Below, one piece after another: positions 9,844-42,465 of a DNA stretch of 42,877 bases. The notes beneath the pieces were generated by a model. It searched no databases. It was not told where the DNA came from and worked only from the letters and a program-made list of their open reading frames with translations. The translations under genes and the position numbers were made by a program. The stretch covers positions 1 through 42,877 of the forward strand of contig NZ_JAAAMK010000016.1 of the NCBI RefSeq assembly GCF_024105665.1. Reading direction: 5' to 3'. The DNA comes from Aliihoeflea aestuarii. Lineage in GTDB: Bacteria; Pseudomonadota; Alphaproteobacteria; Rhizobiales; Rhizobiaceae. Every line of letters starts with the position of its first letter. Position 1 is the first letter of the stretch.

Positions 9844-11526
9844 CTACTGCACCAGCGCAGGGCGTCCGCAATCGACCTTGTGAACACGAACATCCGCCTC
9901 GCCAAGCGAAACGCCGGCGATTGCGAGGACCGTGTTGAGGATACGGTCAAGCGCAGGGGCGACCGGATCGAGAAGCGGCCGCACGATTCCGAGCGATCCC
10001 GATGGAATGCTGATCAGTGGGATACCGAGCGGGTCGACGCGAAGGTCAAGATTGTACAATAGCGAACTCGTCAGCGTCGAGACGGCATCGCGCGTGGCAG
10101 CCGTCTTGACCTTGCCGTGTTCGATGTCCGGCCAGGCGAAGGAAAGCGGAGTATCCCGGAGATTGGTGGCGCTGGCCTCAGCGCGGGCCGATATGTTGGC
10201 GACGGTGATACCCAACACACGTAACCCTACGAGCCGAGCGCGCTCGAGTTTCGGCTGATGGGAGAAATCGTCGATGTTGCGAGCGTCGAAATCGGCGATG
10301 TGCGCGGCGGCGATGCCGGGGCGCGTTGCGATGACGACCCGTGCGCTTTCCTTCATGCCCGTGGCGCAGGATATCGAACTGATCGTTCCCGTTCCATATG
10401 CGACATCGATATAGACCGGCACATGGATCAGCGCGGTGAGCAGCGCATTGGATGTGCCTATCTGGAGATCGACGCGAAGGCGCGTCTGGGCCGTGCGCAT
10501 GGACGTGCCGACCGGCCCGTGGGCGCTGAATCTGGGACGTTCGCCGATGGCGAGGGTAATTGTGGCGTTGGCGATGCCGGGGATGCCCGCGCCCAGATCG
10601 ACTGCGACCTGGTTCTGGTCGTTGGCAAGGGCAGCCATTGCGCGAAGCATCGCCATGGCGTTCACTTCGGCTTCCAGCCCGGCCGTGATGCCGCCGATGC
10701 TCGCATTCGCATCCGTGCCGAGATCGATGATGTCTCCCAGTTGCAGCTTCTTCGCTGCCGGAACGGCGTTCGCTACGGTCTGGAGAGCGGTTCGCGCGGC
10801 GAGCCCAACGCCAGGTGTCGCGGCCAATGCCTGTACGGCTTGCCGGACGCCGATCTGGGCGTCCAGCACGTCGCGATAAGTGCCCGCCCTCAAATCCGCG
10901 TGGATACCAGCTTGCGACGTGAAGGCGAGGAGGTCGATGTCGGTTGACAGGAGGGCGTTGTAATCCATGACGCTGAGATTGATCGACGTGCCGAGCAAAC
11001 TCGACAAAATCTGGTTCGCGATGCCGCCGTCGAGGGCGGCCAGGCGCGAACCGATGGAAAAGGTGGCGCGCGGCTCCATCGAGGCGATGGCAGCGGTCCG
11101 GATGGTGGGAGCCTCGATCAGCGAGCCGGAAAAGAACCGCGTCGCCTTGCGCTCGAACTCGACCCGCACAGCGTTCGCGGGTTCCTGGCCGGCCACGAAA
11201 CGCTGGCCGGCGGCGACGGAAGGGTCGGGCGTATAGACGCCTCTCGTCGTGCGCACATTGGTCGGGACGGCGCCGTCCGACGACAGACCGGCCCATCCAT
11301 TGTCGGCGAATACGGCCAGCGCGATCCGTTCGGCGTCCTGCGGCGATCTGGCTGCCGACATGGCGGCCAGATCCGTCAGACCCTGCGCCTCGCGGCGCTC
11401 CAGAAAGAACGATCCGGTATCGACGCCGAGCGCGGCGACGACGATCAGGACCGGACTGACAAGCGCTGTGATGATAGCGAAATTGCCACCGCGATCGCGC
11501 GGAAGAGAACGCCAGCACAGTCCCAT
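9844..11526 (-). CDS. TadG-like protein with N-terminal TadE/G-like helix
   Basis: This 560-residue protein starts with a short basic segment and RGGNFAIITALVSPVLIVVAA. The latter is the pilin-like membrane helix of the Flp-pilus TadG family (PF13400). GVDTGSFFLERREAQGLTDLAAMSAA follows and is typical of that domain. The remaining 500 residues form a large Ala/Ile/Thr-rich periplasmic region with no von Willebrand A motif that I can recognise. The C terminus KVDCGRPALVQ contains one of two cysteines, and the other is in SCATGMKES. The ATG overlaps the stop of the upstream TadE-like gene, so translation is coupled. A GTG one codon earlier is possible. No other tad or cpa genes are present. Confidence 0.8.
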   Translation of the reverse strand: MGLCWRSLPRDRGGNFAIITALVSPVLIVVAALGVDTGSFFLERREAQGLTDLAAMSAARSPQDAERIALAVFADNGWAGLSSDGAVPTNVRTTRGVYTPDPSVAAGQRFVAGQEPANAVRVEFERKATRFFSGSLIEAPTIRTAAIASMEPRATFSIGSRLAALDGGIANQILSSLLGTSINLSVMDYNALLSTDIDLLAFTSQAGIHADLRAGTYRDVLDAQIGVRQAVQALAATPGVGLAARTALQTVANAVPAAKKLQLGDIIDLGTDANASIGGITAGLEAEVNAMAMLRAMAALANDQNQVAVDLGAGIPGIANATITLAIGERPRFSAHGPVGTSMRTAQTRLRVDLQIGTSNALLTALIHVPVYIDVAYGTGTISSISCATGMKESARVVIATRPGIAAAHIADFDARNIDDFSHQPKLERARLVGLRVLGITVANISARAEASATNLRDTPLSFAWPDIEHGKVKTAATRDAVSTLTSSLLYNLDLRVDPLGIPLISIPSGSLGIVRPLLDPVAPALDRILNTVLAIAGVSLGEADVRVHKVDCGRPALVQ

Positions 11527-11939
11527 CACAGACCTCCGACCCGAACCGTGGACCGGCGCTCGATCGTGGTGCTCGGCATGACCAGGCCGTCGAAGATGCC
11601 CCAGATCGGCAGATGACGGGCATCATACCGCAGATCGACGACAAATCGGGTGGCATCGACTTCGCTGTCTGCAACCTGGACTTGAAGCTTGGCCGGATCG
11701 ACGAAGGCATACCCTTGCGAATGATTTGCGATGTAGTCGATTGCCATTGCGCGGCGCTCGACCTCCGTCAGGCCGCCGACCGAAAGGCGCGCGGCCTCCG
11801 ATGCCAGTTGCTGAACGGAGTGGGAAGCGCCGAGATAAATCCCGTATGCGATCATCCCGAGGAGAAACAGGAAATAGACGGGTGCAAGGATCGCGAACTC
11901 GATCGCGGTCGACCCATTCTTGCAAGAGAATGCGCGCAT
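11526..11939 (-). CDS. TadE-like pseudopilin protein
   Basis: This 137-residue protein begins MRAFSCKNGSTAIEFAILAP, the TadE signature in which a Gly/Ser-Thr-Ala-Ile-Glu-Phe motif precedes a single hydrophobic helix, as in prepilin-peptidase substrates. The rest is a short extracytoplasmic domain. It is the first gene of a two-gene unit with the TadG-like gene, overlapping by one base. TadE and TadG normally help build Flp pili together with a secretin and the TadA ATPase. Those may be elsewhere on the genome, or this pair may work on its own. Confidence 0.82.
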   Translation of the reverse strand: MRAFSCKNGSTAIEFAILAPVYFLFLLGMIAYGIYLGASHSVQQLASEAARLSVGGLTEVERRAMAIDYIANHSQGYAFVDPAKLQVQVADSEVDATRFVVDLRYDARHLPIWGIFDGLVMPSTTIERRSTVRVGGL

Positions 11940-12184
11940 AGGTGGCGTTCCCCGTTTTACACAATCAGCGCATGCTTGCGCTTGATTTATGAACAAGACC
12001 TTAAATTGCACGCATTAAGTGTATTTCCGTGCGTATTCGCCTCTCTTCTAATTTGTGTCGTTCAGGACACGCTGTTGCCAACTCAGCGCTCTTGCTCACA
12101 TAATGTGTCGCGCGGTAACCATAAATCGGTCTAATTGTGAGGGCTGATGCGAATCGCTGGTAGCGACAAGTTTGGAGGGGCCGA

Positions 12185-13084
12185 ATGATCCTGCGATCGG
12201 GAAAGCGCAAACGCCAGGCGAGTGTGTTCGCCACGCTGCTGATGCTTCTGGTCGCCGCCTGGGCCACCGCCGCCCACACCGTTCCCGAATATGTCCTGTT
12301 CCGCGACCGGTTGCGTCTCGACATTCTCGAATTCGACAGCAAGCTCGACCTGAAGCCGATAGACCTTGCGACCAGTGACGGGCTTCGGTTGCGCTCCTAT
12401 TATTTCGCACCCGAAGAAGGCAAGCCGGTCATCGTCTATTTCCCGGACCGGCTGGGCGACATCATTCACAAGCCGCGTCACCTGACGGCGATCGCCGAGC
12501 AGGGCTACGGACTTCTTTTAACCGGCTACAGAGGCTATGGCGGCAATCCGGGCCTGCCCAGCGAGGCCGCGCTCTACGCAGATGCAGCGGCCCTGATGCA
12601 GCGCATCGAGATCGACCATCTCGCGCCCGACGGGATCATCATCTACGGCTATTCGATGGGCACGGGCGTGGCGAGCTATGTCGCCGCTCTGGCCAAGCCG
12701 CTCGGGCTGGTGCTGGAAGCGCCGTTCACGACATTCGGCGACGCGGTGCGCCAGCAATTCGCGCAGGTGCCCGACTGGCTGGTCAAGACCAAGTTCGACA
12801 CCCGCTCACGGCTGAGCAAGGTGACCGCGCCGATCCTCATTGTCGCCGGCGCAAAGGATCAGATCACACCCGCCCGTTTCGCCCAGCGCCTGGCGGATAT
12901 GAACGAGGATCGCACGTCGCTCGTCGTGGTCCCCGACGGCAATCACTTGAACCTCATCCGCAAGGGCGGCGGCGCGGCGGTTCAGGGATTTCTGGCGCGG
13001 TTGAAGGGCGTACCGGCAGGCGAGGCCGAAAATGTCGCTTTCGAGGGCGGGCCGTTGGTCAAGCCCTCGATGCGTGCCTACTGA
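12185..13084 (+). CDS. alpha/beta hydrolase with N-terminal membrane anchor (ABHD13/Bem46-like)
   Basis: This is a 299-residue serine hydrolase. A hydrophobic helix at residues 13-30 (VFATLLMLLVAAWATAA) acts as a signal anchor, so the catalytic domain is probably periplasmic. The nucleophile is S157 in GYSMG. The acid is likely the aspartate in AGAKDQITP, and the histidine lies in DGNHLNL. The layout matches ABHD13/Bem46-type proteins. GGAGGGG is 5 bases before the ATG. The upstream 245 bases (11940-12184) are more AT-rich than the surroundings and should hold promoters for this gene and the divergent TadE gene. The substrate is unknown. Confidence 0.88.
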   Translation: MILRSGKRKRQASVFATLLMLLVAAWATAAHTVPEYVLFRDRLRLDILEFDSKLDLKPIDLATSDGLRLRSYYFAPEEGKPVIVYFPDRLGDIIHKPRHLTAIAEQGYGLLLTGYRGYGGNPGLPSEAALYADAAALMQRIEIDHLAPDGIIIYGYSMGTGVASYVAALAKPLGLVLEAPFTTFGDAVRQQFAQVPDWLVKTKFDTRSRLSKVTAPILIVAGAKDQITPARFAQRLADMNEDRTSLVVVPDGNHLNLIRKGGGAAVQGFLARLKGVPAGEAENVAFEGGPLVKPSMRAY

Positions 13085-30171: not shown

Positions 30172-31257
30172 TCACGATGTCTGGAAGAACCGCTCCCGCG
30201 CCAGAAGATAGGGAATTTCCGTCTGTTCCTTGCGTGCCCGCTGAAGTGCCAGCGCCTGCATGAAGGACTCCGCGACACGTTGGGTGAGCGGATCGGACGA
30301 CCCGCGCAGTCCGTCGAGAATCTCCCGAGACGCTTCAGCGCCCGCTTCGAGAATATCGTCGGGGAACGTTCGCACGATGACGCCGTGATCATCGACCAAA
30401 GTGCGCAGGGCGCGTGGATTGTTGGCCGCGAAATCCGCAGTCATCTGATCATGCGCCGCTTGAGTCGCGAGCCTGACGATCATTTGCAGATCCGGGGCCA
30501 GTGCGTCGAATTTCACGCGGTCGACGACCAGTTCGGCACCGGCGCACGGTTCGATGAAACTGGGCAGGTAGTAGTTCTTCGTGACCTGATGGAAACCGAG
30601 TGCGAGATCGTTGTATGGCCCGACGAATTCGGCCGCGTCGAGCGTTCCCGATTGCAGCGCCTGGAAGATTTCGCCCGCCGCGATGTTGGTCACCGATGCG
30701 CCCAGCCTCTGCCAGACCTGTCCGCCAAGCCCGGGCGTGCGGAACCGCAAACCCTGAATATCGGCCAGACTAGTCAATTCGCTGCGGAACCACCCGCCGG
30801 CCTGCGTGCCCGAATCTCCGGCGAGAAATCCGCGCACGCCGAACTGTTCATAGACCTCGTCCCATAGCTCCTGTCCGCCGAGATAACGCACCCATGCCGT
30901 CAGTTCGCGCGAGGTCATGCCGTAAGGAACGCCGGAAAAGAAGTTCAGTGCCAGACTCTTGTTCTGCCAGTAATAGGGCGTTCCGTGGCTCATCTCGGCA
31001 TTGCCGTCGATGACGGCGTCGAGGGACTGGAGCGGCGGAACGAGTTCGCCGGCTGCATAGACCTCGATGCTCAGGCGTCCGTCCGACGCGGCGGTAATGT
31101 CGTCCGCGATTTTCTGGGCACCTACGCCCTGGCCTGGAAAGTTGCGCGGCCATGTCGTGACCATGCGCCATACATGGCGCTCCTGCGCGATTGCCGGGGC
31201 GGCGAGGGCCGTTGCGGCTCCGGCAGCACCCAAACCCAGAAACGAGCGTCTTTCCAT
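30172..31257 (-). CDS. TRAP transporter substrate-binding protein, TakP-like
   Basis: This 361-residue periplasmic binding protein begins MERRSFLGLG, a Tat-like twin-arginine signal, with cleavage likely after APAIAQ. The blocks MSHGTPYYWQNK, QAGGWFRSEL and AEFVGPYNDLALGFHQV resemble TakP-type proteins that bind 2-oxo acids. GGGAGGA lies upstream of the ATG. No DctQ or DctM gene is adjacent, so it must use a membrane partner encoded elsewhere. It is unlike the DctP at 36641 in sequence. Substrate is inferred only. Confidence 0.88.
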   Translation of the reverse strand: MERRSFLGLGAAGAATALAAPAIAQERHVWRMVTTWPRNFPGQGVGAQKIADDITAASDGRLSIEVYAAGELVPPLQSLDAVIDGNAEMSHGTPYYWQNKSLALNFFSGVPYGMTSRELTAWVRYLGGQELWDEVYEQFGVRGFLAGDSGTQAGGWFRSELTSLADIQGLRFRTPGLGGQVWQRLGASVTNIAAGEIFQALQSGTLDAAEFVGPYNDLALGFHQVTKNYYLPSFIEPCAGAELVVDRVKFDALAPDLQMIVRLATQAAHDQMTADFAANNPRALRTLVDDHGVIVRTFPDDILEAGAEASREILDGLRGSSDPLTQRVAESFMQALALQRARKEQTEIPYLLARERFFQTS

Positions 31258-35520: not shown

Positions 35521-36531
35521 TCAAATATTCGGAACGTTCGTCGGAAAGATGATCTGCATGGGCAGATGTCCGGGCAGCACCGACGAATGCACGGTATCGA
35601 CCAGCATCTCGAGCAGGGTCTGTGTCCGGTGCGTGAGCACGGCAAGCATTGTATCTTCCTCGAGCATCGCAAGCGTATCCCGGCTCAGCCCATGTCCGAC
35701 GAGCGCGACCTGCGTTGCGCGTCCGGCCTGCCGCACCGCCGTCCCGATACCGGCCGATGATCCTCCGACATTATAGATTCCACATAGATCGGGATGCCGA
35801 TCAAGAAGATCGAGCGTGAGCTTCGCATTGACCTGCGGATCGTCTCGCCCCTCGATCGTTTCAGCAAAGGCCACGCCTGGATAGTCCCTCAGAATCAGCT
35901 CCTGAAAACCGAGCTCGCGTTCGACATGCGCGCGATACTGACGCGTTGCGGCGACAATGGCGACCTTGCCTTTCCGGTGAGGATTAAGCCGCGCCAGAAG
36001 AAAGGCGGCCGTTCGGCCAGCCGCGACATTGTCGATCCCTATATAGGCGTGCCGTCGGCTATCAGTAATGTCGCTGATGATGGTGATCACGCGCTTGCCG
36101 GCGGTGACCAGCCTGTCGACCTCGTCGCGCACTTCCGGGTGATCGACGCCGAAAAACGCGATGGCGTCCGAGCGCTTGCCAAGCCGGCGAAGCGCGCCGG
36201 CGAGCGCTGCCGCATCGAGGCTCTCCACCATGAAACTGTGGAGACGCGCACCGCGATCACGCGCTTGCGCCCATATGCGCAGTTCGTTGTTGAAGGTGCG
36301 GATATAGGGGTTGGCGGTTCCGGGCAGCACGACTGTCAGGCGCAGCCGCTCCGGCCGCATGAGACGCGCGATTTGCTCTTCGGCGAGATAGCCGCATTCT
36401 CCGGCGGCTCTCAGCACGCGTTCGGCTGTCTGCTGGCGAACATTGGGCCTCCCGTGAAGCACCCGGTCGACCGTGGCCTCCGACACCCCGGCCAGATTGG
36501 CGATGTCGCGCAAGGCGGGACGCGATCCCAT
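35521..36531 (-). CDS. LacI family transcriptional regulator
   Basis: This 336-residue repressor has an N-terminal LacI helix-turn-helix (LRDIANLAGVSEATVDRVLHGRPNV), a hinge, and a periplasmic-binding-protein-like effector domain (Peripla_BP type, LRLTVVLPGTANPYI onwards). It is divergent from the TRAP-RLP operon and most likely controls it in response to the sugar acid that is imported. I chose the ATG at 36531 with GAGGTG upstream; a TTG one codon before is possible. The ligand is unknown. Its promoter spacer carries the direct repeat described at 36555-36591. Confidence 0.92.
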   Translation of the reverse strand: MGSRPALRDIANLAGVSEATVDRVLHGRPNVRQQTAERVLRAAGECGYLAEEQIARLMRPERLRLTVVLPGTANPYIRTFNNELRIWAQARDRGARLHSFMVESLDAAALAGALRRLGKRSDAIAFFGVDHPEVRDEVDRLVTAGKRVITIISDITDSRRHAYIGIDNVAAGRTAAFLLARLNPHRKGKVAIVAATRQYRAHVERELGFQELILRDYPGVAFAETIEGRDDPQVNAKLTLDLLDRHPDLCGIYNVGGSSAGIGTAVRQAGRATQVALVGHGLSRDTLAMLEEDTMLAVLTHRTQTLLEMLVDTVHSSVLPGHLPMQIIFPTNVPNI

Positions 36532-36554
36532 CAAAACACCTCAAACTTTTGGCG

Positions 36555-36591
36555 TTGCCCTGTCTATCGAGCTTCCATAGCTTCCAGTCAA
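36555..36591. promoter_or_regulatory. overlapping divergent promoters with tandem 9-bp repeat (candidate LacI-type operator)
   Basis: For the regulator, TTGACT (36591-36586) and GATAGA (36568-36563) have a 17-base spacer. For the operon, TTGCCC (36555-36560) and TAGCTT (36578-36583) are also 17 bases apart. The common spacer holds a tandem repeat, GAGCTTCCA then TAGCTTCCA (36569-36586). A protein bound there would block both promoters. LacI operators are usually palindromes, so binding by this regulator is inferred. Confidence 0.5.
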
Positions 36592-36640
36592 TGTGCCGGG
36601 TAGAGGAATGCCGGGACACCTATCGATCTGGGAGGACATC

Positions 36641-37654
36641 ATGACGAATTTGACGCGCATGTCGCGGCGCGGCGTGCTTGCCATCGGCTCGGGCGCGCTC
36701 GCGGCCGCCTTCATCGGAAAAGGCGCGCAGGCTGCCACGACCTTGCGCTACGGCCACATGCATACGCCAAGCTCGATCGCAGGCGCGCAGGCGCAATGGT
36801 TTGCCGATGCGGTCGCGGAAAAGACCGGCGGCGAAATCAACATCCAGATATTTCCCAATTCGCAGCTCGGCCGCTTGCAGGAACTCGCCGAATCCGTGTC
36901 GACGGGGTCGATCGCCTTTTCCCACAATACGGCGGGCGCGATCGGATCGCTCTACACGCCCTTCGCCGCTTTCGACACGCCTTACCTCTACCGCGACGTC
37001 GATCATTTGATGAAGGTCGTCGCGGCCGACAGCCCGGTCATGCAGGAACTCAACGACGGCCTGATCGCAGCCTCGGGAACGCGCGCTCTCTACGCTTTCT
37101 ATTTCGGCACCCGCCAATTGACGGTCAACCAGACGGCCTTGACGCCGGCCGACCTTGCCGGCGTCAAGATCCGCTCCATTCCATTCCCGATCTATATGGC
37201 GACGGTCGAAGGGCTCGGCGGAGTTCCCGTCCCGGTCGACTGGGCCGAGGTGCCGACGGCCCTCGCGACTGGCGTCGTTTCAGGTCAGGAAAACCCCCTC
37301 AATGTGCTGGTGACGGCCAATCTCTCGGATGTCCAAAGTCACCTTATCCTGACTGGGCACACGGCGGCCGCGCAGGTTGTCATGATGAACGACGATGTCT
37401 GGAACGGTCTGTCCGACGCCCACAAGGAAGCCGTCGCGACGGCGGCGGAAGAAACCCGCGAGCGCGCCACACAGGAGATGCTCGCATCCGAGGACGATGA
37501 TCTTGAGACGTTGCGCAGCCGAGGCATGACGATCATCGGCGAAGCGGACGGTCTCGACCTCGACGCCTTCCGCGAAAGCGTCCGCGCACGCATTTCGTCC
37601 GAGTTCGACAGCCAGTTCGGCGATCTCTACACCCAGATCGACGCAATCTCCTGA
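36641..37654 (+). CDS. dctP: TRAP transporter substrate-binding protein DctP
   Basis: This 337-residue periplasmic protein captures an organic acid for the DctQM permease. Residues 1-31 form a Tat-like signal (MSRRGVLAIG, cleavage after GKGAQA). YGHMHTPSSIAGAQAQWFADAV and FPNSQLGRLQELAESVSTGSI are DctP family blocks, and GQENPLNVLV is the region that usually contacts the carboxylate. GGAGGA sits 4 bases before the ATG at 36641; an earlier ATG in frame has no such site. It is the first gene of the six-gene operon, two bases from dctQ. An acidic ligand such as a sugar acid is likely. Confidence 0.95.
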   Translation: MTNLTRMSRRGVLAIGSGALAAAFIGKGAQAATTLRYGHMHTPSSIAGAQAQWFADAVAEKTGGEINIQIFPNSQLGRLQELAESVSTGSIAFSHNTAGAIGSLYTPFAAFDTPYLYRDVDHLMKVVAADSPVMQELNDGLIAASGTRALYAFYFGTRQLTVNQTALTPADLAGVKIRSIPFPIYMATVEGLGGVPVPVDWAEVPTALATGVVSGQENPLNVLVTANLSDVQSHLILTGHTAAAQVVMMNDDVWNGLSDAHKEAVATAAEETRERATQEMLASEDDDLETLRSRGMTIIGEADGLDLDAFRESVRARISSEFDSQFGDLYTQIDAIS

Positions 37655-37656
37655 CC

Positions 37657-38169
37657 ATGGCCGAGACGATTTCCATCGAGGAGCCGGCGCCCGCACCACG
37701 GGCGCTGGAAGTCCTGTGCCGCGTGCTTCTGGCAGTCGCGACAGCACTGATCATATTGGTCGCGGTATTGCTTGTGGCACAGGTCGCAGCACGCAATCTC
37801 TGGAACATCGGTCTGCCGCGGGCTGAAGAACTGATGCGTCTGGCAGGTGTGCTCGCGGTCTATACGACGGCGCCGGTGCTGGCACTGCGCGGCCAGCATG
37901 TGGCCGTCGATGTCTTCATCAACCTCTTGCCGCGATTGCCCAGAGCGGCCTGCCTCGTCATCGCCGAGCTGTCCATGATGCTCTTTTGCGTACTGACGGT
38001 CTATGGCGGCTGGCTCTATTTGCAGCGAGCCTGGAAGTTCAAGACGGCGGCGCTCGGCCTGCCGAACATATACCTCTACGCGCCCATCATGGCGTGTTTC
38101 GTCCTTCTCTTCATCATCTCGGCCTGGCGCATCGCGACGATCGTGCGCACCGAAAGGGCAACGCAGTGA
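37657..38169 (+). CDS. dctQ: TRAP transporter small permease DctQ
   Basis: This 170-residue protein has four hydrophobic segments, as usual for the small TRAP membrane subunit. The block NLWNIGLPRAEELMRLAGVLAVY and the following ALRGQHVAVDVFINLLP are typical of DctQ. It pairs with DctM for sodium-driven uptake. The ATG lies two bases after the dctP stop, and its own stop overlaps the dctM start by four bases. Confidence 0.94.
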   Translation: MAETISIEEPAPAPRALEVLCRVLLAVATALIILVAVLLVAQVAARNLWNIGLPRAEELMRLAGVLAVYTTAPVLALRGQHVAVDVFINLLPRLPRAACLVIAELSMMLFCVLTVYGGWLYLQRAWKFKTAALGLPNIYLYAPIMACFVLLFIISAWRIATIVRTERATQ

Positions 38170-39443
38170 CCTTCACGCTTCTGATCCTTTTTGCGCTGCT
38201 CCTGGTTCTGGGCGCACCGATCTCGGTTAGCCTTGGTCTCTCGTCGGCCGCGACCATTTTCTTTTACGATCTGCCGCTGTCGGTCGTCCTGCAAAGGGCG
38301 GTGAATTCGATCGACAGTTCGCCCCTTCTGGCCGTGCCGATGTTCATCATGGCCGCCAATCTGCTGACCACCACGGGTGTCACGCGCTACATGTTCGATG
38401 TGGTGCGGATGATCGTCGGGCGGCTGCGCGGCGGCATGGCGCATGTGAACGTGCTTCTGTCTCTCATCTTCTCCGGAATGTCCGGTGCGGCGCTCGCCGA
38501 TATCGGAGCGCTCGGCGGCATGCAGGTGCGCGAGATGGTCAACCAGGGCTACACCAGGCGCTTTGCCGCCGGTGTCTCGATTGCTGCCGCGACCATCGGC
38601 CCGATCTTTCCGCCGTCCATCCCCATCATCATCTTCGCGACTGCGGCGGAGGTTTCAGCGGTCAAACTGTTGCTGGCGGGCATCGTCCCCGCATTGCTGA
38701 TTACGGCCATGCTGATGGGTTATATCGCGCTCATCGCACGTTCGCAGAATCTCCCGCGCGATACGGTCCGGCCAAAGCTGCGTGAGTTCCTGCGTCTTGT
38801 CACGATCTCGTTTCCGGCGATGCTGACGCCCGTTTTGCTCATCGGTGGTCTGCTTTCGGGCACGTTCGGTCCGACCGAGGCGGCGGGATTGACGGTTGCC
38901 TATGCGGTTCTCATCGGCTTCCTTGTCTATCGGAAGCTAACCATATCGTCGCTGATCGAGACGGCGCGCGATACGGTTCTGGCAACGGGGAACATTCTGT
39001 TCGTCGTCGCGGCTGCGGCCCTGTTCGCGTGGGTTCTGACCATGGATCAGGTTCCCGCGCGCGCCAGCGATTGGCTGCTCGGCATCTCGGAAAATCCGCT
39101 CGTCCTGCTCCTCATCCTGAATCTCGTCCTTCTGGTTGCGGGCATGTTTCTGGAAGGCATCGCGGCGATTTTGATCATCGCGCCGATCGTGACGCCCGCG
39201 CTCGTCGCTGCCGGTGCGCCGCCGGAGCAAATCGGCATCGTCATGGTGCTCAACCTCATGATCGGGCTTTTGACGCCGCCGGTCGGGATGAGCCTCTACA
39301 TGATGTCCATCGCGGCGAAGATGCCATTCGCCGAAGTACTTCGCGGTGTCGTTCCCTTCTTCATTCCGCTGTTTACCGCGCTGGCTCTGGTGACGCTGTT
39401 CCCAAGCCTTTCCGCGTGGCTGCCCAATCTCTTGATGGAGTAA
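38166..39443 (+). CDS. dctM: TRAP transporter large permease DctM
   Basis: This 425-residue protein has about 12 hydrophobic segments and forms the transport channel. SGAALADIGALGGMQVREM and IGPIFPPSIPIIIFA are DctM signatures. It probably uses the GTG at 38166, overlapping the dctQ stop (GTGA), which indicates translational coupling. The C terminus is followed by the VOC gene after three bases. Confidence 0.94.
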   Translation: MTFTLLILFALLLVLGAPISVSLGLSSAATIFFYDLPLSVVLQRAVNSIDSSPLLAVPMFIMAANLLTTTGVTRYMFDVVRMIVGRLRGGMAHVNVLLSLIFSGMSGAALADIGALGGMQVREMVNQGYTRRFAAGVSIAAATIGPIFPPSIPIIIFATAAEVSAVKLLLAGIVPALLITAMLMGYIALIARSQNLPRDTVRPKLREFLRLVTISFPAMLTPVLLIGGLLSGTFGPTEAAGLTVAYAVLIGFLVYRKLTISSLIETARDTVLATGNILFVVAAAALFAWVLTMDQVPARASDWLLGISENPLVLLLILNLVLLVAGMFLEGIAAILIIAPIVTPALVAAGAPPEQIGIVMVLNLMIGLLTPPVGMSLYMMSIAAKMPFAEVLRGVVPFFIPLFTALALVTLFPSLSAWLPNLLME

Positions 39444-39446
39444 TCT

Positions 39447-39986
39447 ATGAGTCGCTTTCTTGGCCCCATCCGCCAGCTCGGATTTGTCGTTCCCGACATC
39501 GAGCAGGCGATGGATCACTGGACGCGCGTGATGGGCGTCGGCCCCTTCTACTACAATCCGCGCGTCCCGATCGAAGACTACACCTATGCAGGACAGCGTT
39601 ACGAGCCGCACAATTCGGTCGCGCTGGGCAATGCCGGCTATATCCAGGTCGAGTTGATCCAGTGCCGCAACGACGTTCCGTCCATGTACAAGGACTTTAC
39701 CGATGCGGGGAACTGGGGGCTCCAGCATACCGCTTACTGGACGCAGGACTACGACCGCGATTTGGCGACGATGGAAGCCGAAGGCTATGCGGTGAAGATG
39801 TCGGGCAAGGTCGGTGCTGCTGGCCGTTTCGCTTATTTCGACAAGGAAACGCATCCCGGTTCGGTGATCGAACTTTCTGAGGTGAAAGGACCGAAAGGTC
39901 GCCTGTTCGACCTCATCCGCACCGCCTCGGAAGGCTGGGAGGGCAGCGATCCCGTACGTCCATTTCCTGACCTGTCGAAGGTCTGA
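39447..39986 (+). CDS. VOC family (glyoxalase-like) protein of the RLP operon
   Basis: This 179-residue protein has the paired beta-alpha-beta-beta-beta layout of the vicinal oxygen chelate fold, close to methylmalonyl-CoA epimerase and 4-hydroxyphenylpyruvate dioxygenase-like subgroups. Candidate metal ligands are E69 (YIQVELIQ), H94 (LQHTAYW) and E142 (SVIELSE). The position that is usually His in the first strand is Q10 (IRQLGFVV). The gene is three bases from dctM and five from the RLP, so its product almost certainly acts on the same substrate. An epimerase or isomerase that presents a keto acid to the kinase or RLP is my preferred guess. Dioxygenase or lyase roles are alternatives. Confidence 0.88.
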   Translation: MSRFLGPIRQLGFVVPDIEQAMDHWTRVMGVGPFYYNPRVPIEDYTYAGQRYEPHNSVALGNAGYIQVELIQCRNDVPSMYKDFTDAGNWGLQHTAYWTQDYDRDLATMEAEGYAVKMSGKVGAAGRFAYFDKETHPGSVIELSEVKGPKGRLFDLIRTASEGWEGSDPVRPFPDLSKV

Positions 39987-39991
39987 CGGGG

Positions 39992-41248
39992 ATGATACGT
40001 GCAACCTACGTCGTCGAGACGCCAGTACCTATAGCCGATGTCGCGGCGATGATGGCCGGGGAACAAAGCGCCGGCACGTTCGTCCGCGTCGCCGGCGAGA
40101 CTGACGCTTTGCGCCGGCGCTTCGGCGCGCAGGTGATTTCGACCGAGGAAATCGGGCGATCGGATTCGCCGACGCTGCGCAGTGCCTGGGCCGAACGAAA
40201 GGGATTGAACGGGCCGCGCGGAATTTACCGCGTCGTCATCGATTATCCCGAAGACAATGTCGGCGTAAATCTGCCGACGCTCGCATCGGTCGTTGCCGGC
40301 AATCTCTACGATCTCGGCGAAGTCACCGGGCTGAAGCTCGTCGATGTCGAGGTCACGCGGGATTATCGCGAGCGCTACGATTTGCCGACTATGGGCATCG
40401 CCGGCACCAGAGCGTCCGCCGGTGTCGAAGGCCGTCCCCTGTTCGGAACGATCATCAAGCCGAATATCGGTTTGTCGCCGGACCAGATCGCCGATCTGGT
40501 CGAAACGCTTTGCGAGGCCGGCGTCGATTTCGTCAAGGACGACGAGATCGCCGGCACGCACCCTCACGCGCCGGTCGACGCGCGCATCCGGGCCGTGATG
40601 GACCGCGTGCGCCGTCATCGGGACCGGACCGGCCGCCTGGTGATGGTGGCGTTCAACATCACCGATGAAACCGATATCATGCGCCGCCATGCCGACCTTC
40701 TGGCGCACGAGGAAGGCACTTGCGCAATGGTATCGCTCAACTGGTGCGGCCTGTCGGCCGTACAGACGCTGCGCCGCCACACGCCGCTTGCCGTCCATGG
40801 TCATCGCAACGGCTATGGCGGCATGGGGCGTCATCCGTTGCTCGGCATCGGGGTGCGTGCCTATCAGGTGCTTTACCGGCTTGCCGGCATCGACCACATG
40901 CACGTCCACGGCATGCGCGGCAAGTTCTCGGATCTCGAAGAAGATGTGACCGCCGCTGCCCGGCACTGTCTCGAAAAGATAAGCGAGGGCGATGACCGCG
41001 TGATGCCCGTCTTCTCGTCCGGCCAATGGGCCGGCACGCTACCCTTCACGCTTGAGCAGGTCGGTTCCGACGACCTGATGTTTCTGTGCGGCGGCGGCAT
41101 CATCGCTCACCCGGACGGCCCGGCCGCCGGCGTTATCAGCCTTCGGCAGGCATATGACGCCTGCAAGGAGGGCGTTCCGCTGGACGTCCACGCGCGGTCG
41201 CATACCGAGCTTGCTTCGGCCCTCGCCAAGTTCGGCGGAAAGACCTGA
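39992..41248 (+). CDS. RuBisCO-like protein (form IV RLP), candidate sugar-acid phosphate decarboxylase or transcarboxylase
   Basis: This 418-residue protein aligns to the RuBisCO large subunit along its whole length. Positions matching spinach residues are E24 (E60), N104 (N123), K156 (K175), K182-D183-D184-E185 (carbamylated K201, D203, E204), H271-R272 (H294, R295), H304 (H327), K311 (K334) and S342 (S379). The loop CGGGIIAHP matches the phosphate-binding Gly-Gly. N158 replaces K177, so CO2 fixation is unlikely. Known RLPs of this kind (OiaX, OiaT) act on 3-oxo-isoapionate 4-phosphate. It starts five bases after the VOC stop and ends two bases before the kinase. Carboxylation of RuBP cannot be its job. 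Confidence 0.9.
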   Translation: MIRATYVVETPVPIADVAAMMAGEQSAGTFVRVAGETDALRRRFGAQVISTEEIGRSDSPTLRSAWAERKGLNGPRGIYRVVIDYPEDNVGVNLPTLASVVAGNLYDLGEVTGLKLVDVEVTRDYRERYDLPTMGIAGTRASAGVEGRPLFGTIIKPNIGLSPDQIADLVETLCEAGVDFVKDDEIAGTHPHAPVDARIRAVMDRVRRHRDRTGRLVMVAFNITDETDIMRRHADLLAHEEGTCAMVSLNWCGLSAVQTLRRHTPLAVHGHRNGYGGMGRHPLLGIGVRAYQVLYRLAGIDHMHVHGMRGKFSDLEEDVTAAARHCLEKISEGDDRVMPVFSSGQWAGTLPFTLEQVGSDDLMFLCGGGIIAHPDGPAAGVISLRQAYDACKEGVPLDVHARSHTELASALAKFGGKT

Positions 41249-41250
41249 CA

Positions 41251-42465
41251 TTGGCCTACATATTCGTCGCGGATGATTTTACAGGCGCCTCCGACACGCT
41301 TGCGACCCTGGCTCGATGTGGGCTGCGGGCGCGCTTGTTTCTCGACGTGCCGCAAGCCGACGAGGTCGACGGCCTCGACGCGTGGGGCATCGCCACCCAT
41401 GCGCGCTCGCTCGACAGCCGGAGCCTGAAGGCTCTCGCGGTCGATCTCGGGCGCAAGCTTGCGCCTTTCCGGCCACCTTTCCTGCACGTTAAAGTATGTT
41501 CGACATTCGACTCGTCCGCAGAGACGGGAAACATCGCGATCCTTGCCGAAGCGTTGTGCCAGGCCATCGGAGCCAGGAAACTGGCCGTCATCGGCGGACA
41601 GCCGTCGCTCGGCCGCTTTTGTGTGTTCGGCAATCTGTTCGCTCGGGCGCCCGACAACGGCGTCTACCGGATCGACCGGCACCCGATCATGGCCTCTCAT
41701 CCGGTGACGCCGATGAGGGAAGCCGATCTATCCCTGCACTTTGCTGCGCTCGGCCTGACCGGCCTCAGCCGCGTGGACCGACGAACGAGCGGAAGCGGCA
41801 CAGCGTTTCCCCGTCTTTACGATGTGCTTGAACAGGCCGACATCGCAATGATCGGTCGCGAACTTGTGGAGGAGGCAGCGCCACTCGTCGTTGTCGGCGC
41901 GTCGTCGGTGGCCGAAGCGTGGCTTGCGGGGCAGGGCATCGGGCGGGCAGTACCGCAACCGGGATTGAGCGTCGATCGCCCGATACTTGCCTTTGCCGGC
42001 AGCCGTTCATCCCTGACCGCCAGTCAGGTCGCAGCGGCAGACGGGCTGGCGCGACACCCCGTTTCGCCTTCGGATCTGGATCCGAACAGCCGAGCCCGCG
42101 AAACTATCTTCCACTGGGCAAGCGAACGATTGGCGGGCGGCCAGGATTGTCTGTTGTTTCTCACGGCTGACAGCGCCCAAGATACGACGCCCGCTATCCT
42201 TGCAAGATGGAGCGCCCATCTGATTTCGCAAATATTGCAGCAAGCCAGGGTGGGCGCGTTGATCGTCGCCGGCGGCGACACGTCGAGCGCCGTCGTACAG
42301 GAACTGAAACCTCGCTACCTTGAATTCGCTGGAACAGTTTGCCCGGGCGTCTCAACGCTCGTTGCGAACCTGGCTGGCCACCCGATGCCGCTTATTTTGA
42401 AGGGAGGGCAGATGGGTGATGTCCATTTTTTCCGAGATTCGATGCGGTTCCTCGGCCAAAACTGA
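41251..42465 (+). CDS. four-carbon acid sugar kinase family protein (DUF1537), OiaK-like
   Basis: This 404-residue kinase begins AYIFVADDFTGASDTLA, the DUF1537 N-terminal substrate motif. HVKVCSTFDSSAETGNI (79-95) and IDRHPIMASHPVTPM (141-155) point to the branch that includes 3-oxo-isoapionate kinase (OiaK) rather than the threonate kinases. The ATP-binding C-terminal half has VAGGDTSSAVVQEL (339-352) and ILKGGQMGDVHFF. The start is a TTG at 41251, two bases after the RLP stop, with GGAAAG 7 bases upstream. It should phosphorylate the terminal hydroxyl of a keto sugar acid to make the RLP substrate. It is the last gene of the operon. Confidence 0.88.
   Translation: MAYIFVADDFTGASDTLATLARCGLRARLFLDVPQADEVDGLDAWGIATHARSLDSRSLKALAVDLGRKLAPFRPPFLHVKVCSTFDSSAETGNIAILAEALCQAIGARKLAVIGGQPSLGRFCVFGNLFARAPDNGVYRIDRHPIMASHPVTPMREADLSLHFAALGLTGLSRVDRRTSGSGTAFPRLYDVLEQADIAMIGRELVEEAAPLVVVGASSVAEAWLAGQGIGRAVPQPGLSVDRPILAFAGSRSSLTASQVAAADGLARHPVSPSDLDPNSRARETIFHWASERLAGGQDCLLFLTADSAQDTTPAILARWSAHLISQILQQARVGALIVAGGDTSSAVVQELKPRYLEFAGTVCPGVSTLVANLAGHPMPLILKGGQMGDVHFFRDSMRFLGQN

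Follow-up and report, generated by a model that had tools for sequence, protein, structure and literature searches.

What does a RuBisCO-like protein (RLP) do when it is encoded together with a VOC-fold protein, a sugar-acid kinase and an importer of its own? We examined this question for an operon of Aliihoeflea aestuarii that lies in a stretch of 42,877 nucleotides (the window), which is the entire contig C8 (NZ_JAAAMK010000016.1) of a genome of 4.11 Mb in 25 contigs with a completeness of 98.94%. DUF1537 kinases, the family of the operon's kinase, have sugar acids and 3-oxo sugar acids as substrates. To our knowledge the RLP functions that have been established are few, namely the MtnW enolase, the isomerase of Rhodospirillum, OiaX and OiaT. 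The last two reportedly belong to a D-apionate pathway (Carter 2018) that also includes ApnL, ApnO and the kinase OiaK, and the parts of PMC6302742 that treat these two RLPs describe them as acting on 3-oxo-isoapionate 4-phosphate. A reading made from the sequence alone had proposed that the operon specifies a candidate new sugar-acid pathway. We found that the operon is a real and discrete module with an unassigned RLP subgroup, and that it varies on the kinase-RLP pathways already known for sugar acids rather than being a new kind of system. The open-licence literature in PMC (PubMed Central) yielded no description of an operon that joins VOC, RLP and kinase genes, although one could stand in Carter 2018, Vetting 2015 or Zhang 2016.

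A compact operon with a fixed VOC-RLP-kinase core

The whole set occupies positions 35521-42465 of the window. On the forward strand, the genes for a TRAP importer, dctP (solute-binding protein, 36641-37654; PF03480 (DctP), 196 bits), dctQ (small permease, 37657-38169; PF04290, 70 bits) and dctM (large permease, 38169-39443; PF06808, 355 bits), are followed by the VOC gene (39447-39986; PF13669 (Glyoxalase_4), 80 bits), the RLP gene (39992-41248; PF00016 RuBisCO_large, 224 bits, and RuBisCO_large_N, 30.5 bits) and a DUF1537 kinase gene with a TTG start (41251-42465; PF07005 (SBD_N), 124 bits, and PF17042 (NBD_C), 77.5 bits). The successive intergenic gaps are 2, -1, 3, 5 and 2 bases, where the start of dctM at 38169 is a GTG codon of our choosing and the list of open reading frames has a start at 37986. 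Divergent from these genes, on the reverse strand, is a LacI-family regulator (35521-36534) with a helix-turn-helix domain (Pfam LacI, 48 bits) and a sensor domain (Peripla_BP_4, 108 bits). These positions, domains and gaps bear out the six tightly packed genes and divergent regulator of the sequence-only reading, as well as the location of the VOC gene after dctM and before the RLP gene. As that reading had also stated, no apionate oxidoisomerase (ApnO-like), lactonase or dehydrogenase gene was found within the operon.

To describe how far this arrangement is kept, we assembled 116 RLP loci: 80 from a contig scan, in which the best 80 of 305 confirmed relatives were kept (identity 58-83%), 14 plasmid loci fetched out of 60 rows listed, 20 from further genome matches, the window itself and a second locus of the same genome (L003). 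Since the loci were retrieved via the RLP, and mostly by likeness to the window RLP, the resulting counts speak about this RLP group. A VOC gene of the window type was present in 90 of the 116 loci. In all 90, the VOC, RLP and kinase genes were adjacent, in one order and on one strand, with the matched domains at most 181 bases apart, which argues that the grouping is not due to chance. The regulator accompanied them in 89 of these loci (the exception, L081, starts only 2.4 kb before its RLP), and the TRAP genes did so in most (dctP in 86, dctM in 85, dctQ in 84). ApnO and ApnL occurred in none of the 90, whereas among the 26 loci without a window-type VOC ApnO was present in 14 and ApnL in 9.

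Plasmid records gave a similar division. All 18 listed RLP matches of at least 53.6% identity also had a full VOC match, and the 11 plasmid loci fetched with an RLP of at most 51% identity were without the window-type VOC. Full VOC matches of at least 64.8% were found in 19 plasmid records, the one beyond these 18 being that of Azospirillum thermophilum. A boundary case is the Neorhizobium locus L117 (RLP 53.6%), which carries the VOC gene plus an SDR. VOC linkage was thus seen throughout the RLP clade, a result opposite to the one that the sequence-only reading had named as refuting its proposal.

The three enzymes stay together even when the importer is exchanged. An SBP_bac_3-type ABC importer takes the place of TRAP in L088, L097 and L108, and part of one is present in L110; domains were checked in two of these loci, L097 (ABC_tran, BPD_transp_1 and SBP_bac_3) and L088 (SBP_bac_3). 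Furthermore, L088, from Paenalcaligenes niemegkensis, contains a natural RLP-kinase fusion in a single open frame (9935-12571), with the RLP at residues 23-438 and the kinase at residues 447-877 of 878, numbered from the preceding stop.

Found in diverse proteobacteria of many families, the module is nonetheless sparse. An even draw of 385 genomes from the window's class held no RLP above 49% identity besides the window's own, and across 385 genomes from the class to which G403 belongs no VOC exceeded 58% except that of G403, a genome chosen for having it. Within the G385 family, an RLP of at least 58% was present in 7 of 100 genomes, counting G385 itself, and the six newly found ones all bear the VOC gene.

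The RLP and kinase form clades apart from the apionate enzymes

With its RuBisCO_large domain, the RLP is by sequence a form IV protein outside the carboxylase forms (225 bits against the form III RuBisCO model, cut-off 497). The best NCBIfam models for the RLP and the kinase were OiaX (NF042437) and OiaK (NF042436), but the scores of 380 and 166 bits were far under the cut-offs of 700, and neither protein could be assigned to these families. The kinase has both DUF1537 domains (SBD_N and NBD_C) and belongs to that family. It shares this two-domain architecture with OtnK and DtnK, the 3-oxo-tetronate and threonate kinases; it differs from them in its partner, which is an RLP rather than the OtnC decarboxylase, and in its weak profile scores (140 bits on OtnK, cut-off 350; 81 bits on D-threonate kinase, cut-off 450). 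Other kinases tested on the OiaK model reached 298-472 bits, none above 700. On the OiaX model, 34 of the 198 genomes taken from G403's family exceeded the cut-off (731-797 bits), and below it lay groups at 418-454 and 383-403 bits plus one fragment of 228 bits. The two VOC-type loci identified in that family scored 402.5 (G403:C23) and 397.6 (G389:C2).

Trees agreed with this separation. In a careful tree of 60 RLPs, which carries warnings for long branches and a long outgroup join, 28 VOC-linked rows formed one clade (100/100), 8 OiaX rows formed another (100/100) and the remaining 22 rows fell outside both. The 28 rows represent 28 of the 90 VOC loci, while the quick RLP tree and the kinase tree held 34 of 90; both RLP trees included all 26 VOC-less loci, and the kinase tree the 23 of them with a kinase. 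The OiaX rows came from the 6 of 14 fetched OiaX loci that yielded sequence, plus L187 and L188, the latter counted as OiaX from its place in the tree and not from its own score. In the unrooted kinase tree, the 34 kinases of VOC loci made up one side of a branch (SH-aLRT 99). All 14 ApnO-linked RLP loci were outside the VOC clade, and it is only indirectly, through these, that OiaT itself was compared. The grouping with OiaX or with ApnO-linked RLPs and kinases that would have spoken against a separate pathway was therefore not seen.

The best solved relative of the RLP is 3nwr, entered as 'a rubisco-like protein' (526 bits, 57% identity). The quick tree of 61 rows placed it within the VOC clade (SH-aLRT 100, 35 rows), as the neighbour of a Paraburkholderia RLP with a VOC locus; it is not known to have an assigned function.

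At the residue level, the RLP keeps K156, the KDDE motif (182-185), N104, H304 and K311, which we align by eye with RuBisCO K175, K201-D203-E204, N123, H327 and K334. In the OiaX rows, G stands in place of N104 and Q in place of H304. In addition, ten positions are fixed (at least 95%) in the 90 VOC-clade RLPs and hold another residue in most of 22 other kinase-linked RLPs: D107, R126, N158, D225, H233, A234, W251, H306, G310 and T349.

The genome of A. aestuarii also contains a second RLP-kinase cluster, which the sequence-only reading had not covered. This apionate-type cluster (contig C21, 80000-98000; locus L003) holds an RLP 47% identical to that of the window, a kinase scoring 432 bits on OiaK (cut-off 700), an ApnL-like protein (733 bits, cut-off 750), a GntR regulator, its own dctPQM and a PGDH_C dehydrogenase that we take to be ApnO, no ApnO model having matched; a second ApnO-like gene, 51% identical, lies at C21:96977-97792. 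Apionate genes elsewhere in the genome had been named as a point that would weaken the proposal, and they do exist, but the cluster comes complete with a separate RLP, kinase and importer, and this second kinase-RLP pair suggests another substrate for the window operon. Among 20 module-bearing genomes, hand-picked from the 80 scan loci to span lineages, 16 had no ApnO homologue at E 1e-10 and 16 had no second RLP at E 1e-40, a threshold at which more distant RLPs would be missed. In three of the four genomes with ApnO, it lay within about 10 kb of a second RLP. These counts indicate that the module is independent of apionate enzymes in most of the 20 genomes.

Taken together, the comparison shows that both systems combine an RLP with a neighbouring DUF1537 kinase, use a TRAP or ABC importer and have RLPs of the same branch; they differ in the VOC gene, the missing ApnO and ApnL, the separate clades of RLP and kinase, and residues specific to the VOC-clade RLP such as N158, W251, H306 and T349. 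Membership of the module in the apionate pathway was rejected on profile scores, trees and the missing ApnO and ApnL, with OiaT itself left unplaced.

The VOC protein resembles methylmalonyl-CoA epimerases in predicted fold

The predicted structure of the VOC protein (pLDDT 93) has 3gm5, a putative methylmalonyl-CoA epimerase, as its nearest match, followed by true epimerases. Q10, Q67, H94 and E142, the presumed metal ligands, are at least 97% conserved over the 90 loci, and three of these four agree with the epimerase by alignment. Fold and presumed ligands thus match a VOC-fold metal enzyme, presumably an isomerase or epimerase. The protein differs from methylmalonyl-CoA epimerase in that it has no CoA context and scores 20.9 bits on TIGR03081 (cut-off 115), well short of that family. 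No paralogue was found in its own genome at E 0.001.

A direct repeat upstream of the LacI regulator

Another feature beyond the sequence-only reading is a putative operator, the direct repeat CATCAAAACACCTCA at 36529-36543 on the forward strand, which overlaps the start of the LacI open reading frame. Its consensus CATCAAAANCCATCA, with up to 2 mismatches allowed, is present upstream of LacI in 73 of the 89 regions and in each case runs in the orientation of the operon. Among 445 random windows drawn from these loci there were 8 with a match, and some of the windows may overlap the site. The repeat was picked by eye in 17 upstream regions and then counted over all 89, so that the count of 73 is not independent of the choice of motif. 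A palindromic operator was considered and rejected: 16-base palindromes (7 of 8 pairs) in the 89 regions did not recur across lineages, and the single shared one was confined to three regions (L066, L071 and L077). From these patterns, the operator of this LacI-family regulator is likely a direct repeat rather than a palindrome.

We also scanned 20 genomes for exact copies of CMTCAAAANNCMTCA, leaving out G394, one of the 20 hand-picked module genomes. There were 22 sites, of which 16 sit 3-5 kb upstream of a module RLP, and each of the 15 genomes with a match has a copy in that location; a reversed control pattern occurred once in the 20 genomes. The sites at the module are not independent of the choice of motif, but the scarcity elsewhere is. 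As the genome of A. aestuarii has one exact copy, that at the window operon, the regulator seems, judging from motif occurrence, to serve mainly this operon.

A proposed redox-free route and its alternatives

We give about even weight to the reading that the operon, under local regulation, serves the breakdown of a small oxidised sugar acid (about C4-C6) other than apionate by a redox-free VOC-kinase-RLP route. The analysis itself establishes gene content, conservation, clade separation, the operator motif, the predicted fold and the conserved residues, while the substrate class, the step order and each reaction are inferred. The TRAP importer would bring in a keto-sugar acid that is already oxidised, and the VOC protein, as an enzyme of the methylmalonyl-CoA epimerase type, would convert it, by isomerisation or epimerisation through an enediolate, into the correct 3-oxo acid; in this way it would fill the role of ApnO in the apionate route without a redox reaction. 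In methylmalonyl-CoA epimerase the metal holds a malonyl-type 1,3-dicarbonyl while a proton is moved on the middle carbon, and the geometry is that of a 3-oxo sugar acid. The DUF1537 kinase would then place a phosphate onto the terminal hydroxyl, and the RLP would either decarboxylate the 3-oxo acid phosphate or carry out carboxyl transfer and hydrolysis, and would so feed sugar phosphates into central metabolism. The RLP shares N104 and H304 with the ApnO-linked RLPs that are not OiaX, which makes a transcarboxylase/hydrolase as open as a decarboxylase. This route is the simplest reading of three results: the operon has no redox enzyme, neighbour clustering found no dehydrogenase family recurring near the 80 scan loci (beyond module genes there was one larger cluster, an ABC ATPase with 30 members, and the next largest had 8), and the genome has no second exact operator.

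Several observations weigh against this route. The VOC protein matches the epimerase folds only moderately (TM by query length 0.52-0.66), and in a weak alignment (E 0.7) Gln, its first presumed ligand, takes the place of a His of methylmalonyl-CoA epimerase. Relatives 46-58% identical to it are found outside sugar operons in 20 alphaproteobacterial loci (L244-L263), none of whose 20 stretches contains an RLP or a DUF1537 kinase and whose single recurring neighbour is an unidentified protein of about 200 residues directly before the VOC gene in 4 of 20; this subfamily gives the sugar chemistry no support. The SDR dehydrogenase in the related Neorhizobium operon L117 indicates that the route may include an oxidation, with the gene for it lying away from the operon in other genomes. 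Five of the 20 genomes had no exact CMTCAAAANNCMTCA match, and a search by exact pattern would miss weaker sites by distant genes.

The L117 dehydrogenase also favours a redox pathway in which an enzyme encoded elsewhere oxidises an imported aldonate and the VOC protein only corrects the stereochemistry at the carbon between carboxylate and ketone, before the kinase and RLP act. SDRs beside several VOC-less RLP-kinase operons, and the epimerases as the nearest solved folds, would fit such a scheme; we consider it rather doubtful, given that no dehydrogenase family recurs around the 80 loci and that no second exact operator site exists in the genome. A further branch of D-apionate/D-apiose catabolism, with the kinase as OiaK, the RLP as OiaX or OiaT, the upstream enzymes elsewhere and the VOC protein as an accessory, seems improbable to us. 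The two enzyme families are the same, OiaX and OiaK are the best models, ApnL-like and ApnO-like genes exist on C21 and OiaT could not be placed by name, but the scores and separate clades, the absence of ApnO from 16 of 20 module genomes and from all 90 loci, the self-contained C21 cluster and the clade-specific residues at the RLP active-site motifs all point away from it. Finally, the VOC proteins include glyoxalases, and glyoxalase I structures were among the fold matches, so that the protein might protect from a reactive by-product while kinase and RLP alone perform the conversion. We regard this as very improbable, for the VOC gene keeps its place beside the RLP in 90 of 90 loci, accompanies the RLP in each of the 18 plasmid records where that protein reaches 53.6% identity or more, and encodes a protein whose nearest folds are epimerases.

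Other genes and loci

The nearest solved chains of the window's DctP are 4nq8, 4p9k and 4pdh, reportedly pantoate and D-erythronate complexes, and such ligands would agree with a hydroxy acid of C4-C6 as the imported compound. A second DctP-type binding protein is encoded outside the operon (30172-31257, reverse strand; PF03480, 156 bits). The contig end (42770-42877) appears to resemble the start of an IS481-type transposase, so that an insertion sequence directly behind the operon may have interrupted the assembly.

The plasmid loci L118, L121, L122 and L128 contain RLP-kinase pairs with SDR, LysR, and TRAP or MFS transporters, two of them with pyruvate kinase; neither a window-type VOC nor ApnO was found in these stretches, and the pairs are possibly a further unassigned RLP-kinase type. 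In the Natronococcus plasmid locus L123, the neighbours of a haloarchaeal RLP are a class II aldolase, an FGGY kinase and NAD(P)-dependent oxidoreductases. At a distance of a few kilobases, both this locus and L129 carry genes with a VOC-family annotation that are not of the window type.

Implications

The proposal of a new sugar-acid pathway stood in part: the kinase-RLP operon is apart from the apionate one and its VOC gene is conserved, but it remains a variant of the known kinase-RLP pathways. An entire RLP clade here comes with a fixed partner gene, a natural kinase fusion and a regulator of its own whose operator can be recognised, and one structure inside the clade (3nwr) has been solved. 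Three soluble enzymes and one binding protein suffice for testing the pathway, and the answer would assign a subgroup of the RuBisCO superfamily and name a sugar acid eaten by soil and marine bacteria. We hold it possible, more tentatively, that this RLP has an undescribed substrate and possibly an undescribed reaction, in a redox-free pathway with a VOC metal isomerase in the place of ApnO. If so, bacteria of many families would use this RLP module on a so far unrecognised keto-sugar acid.

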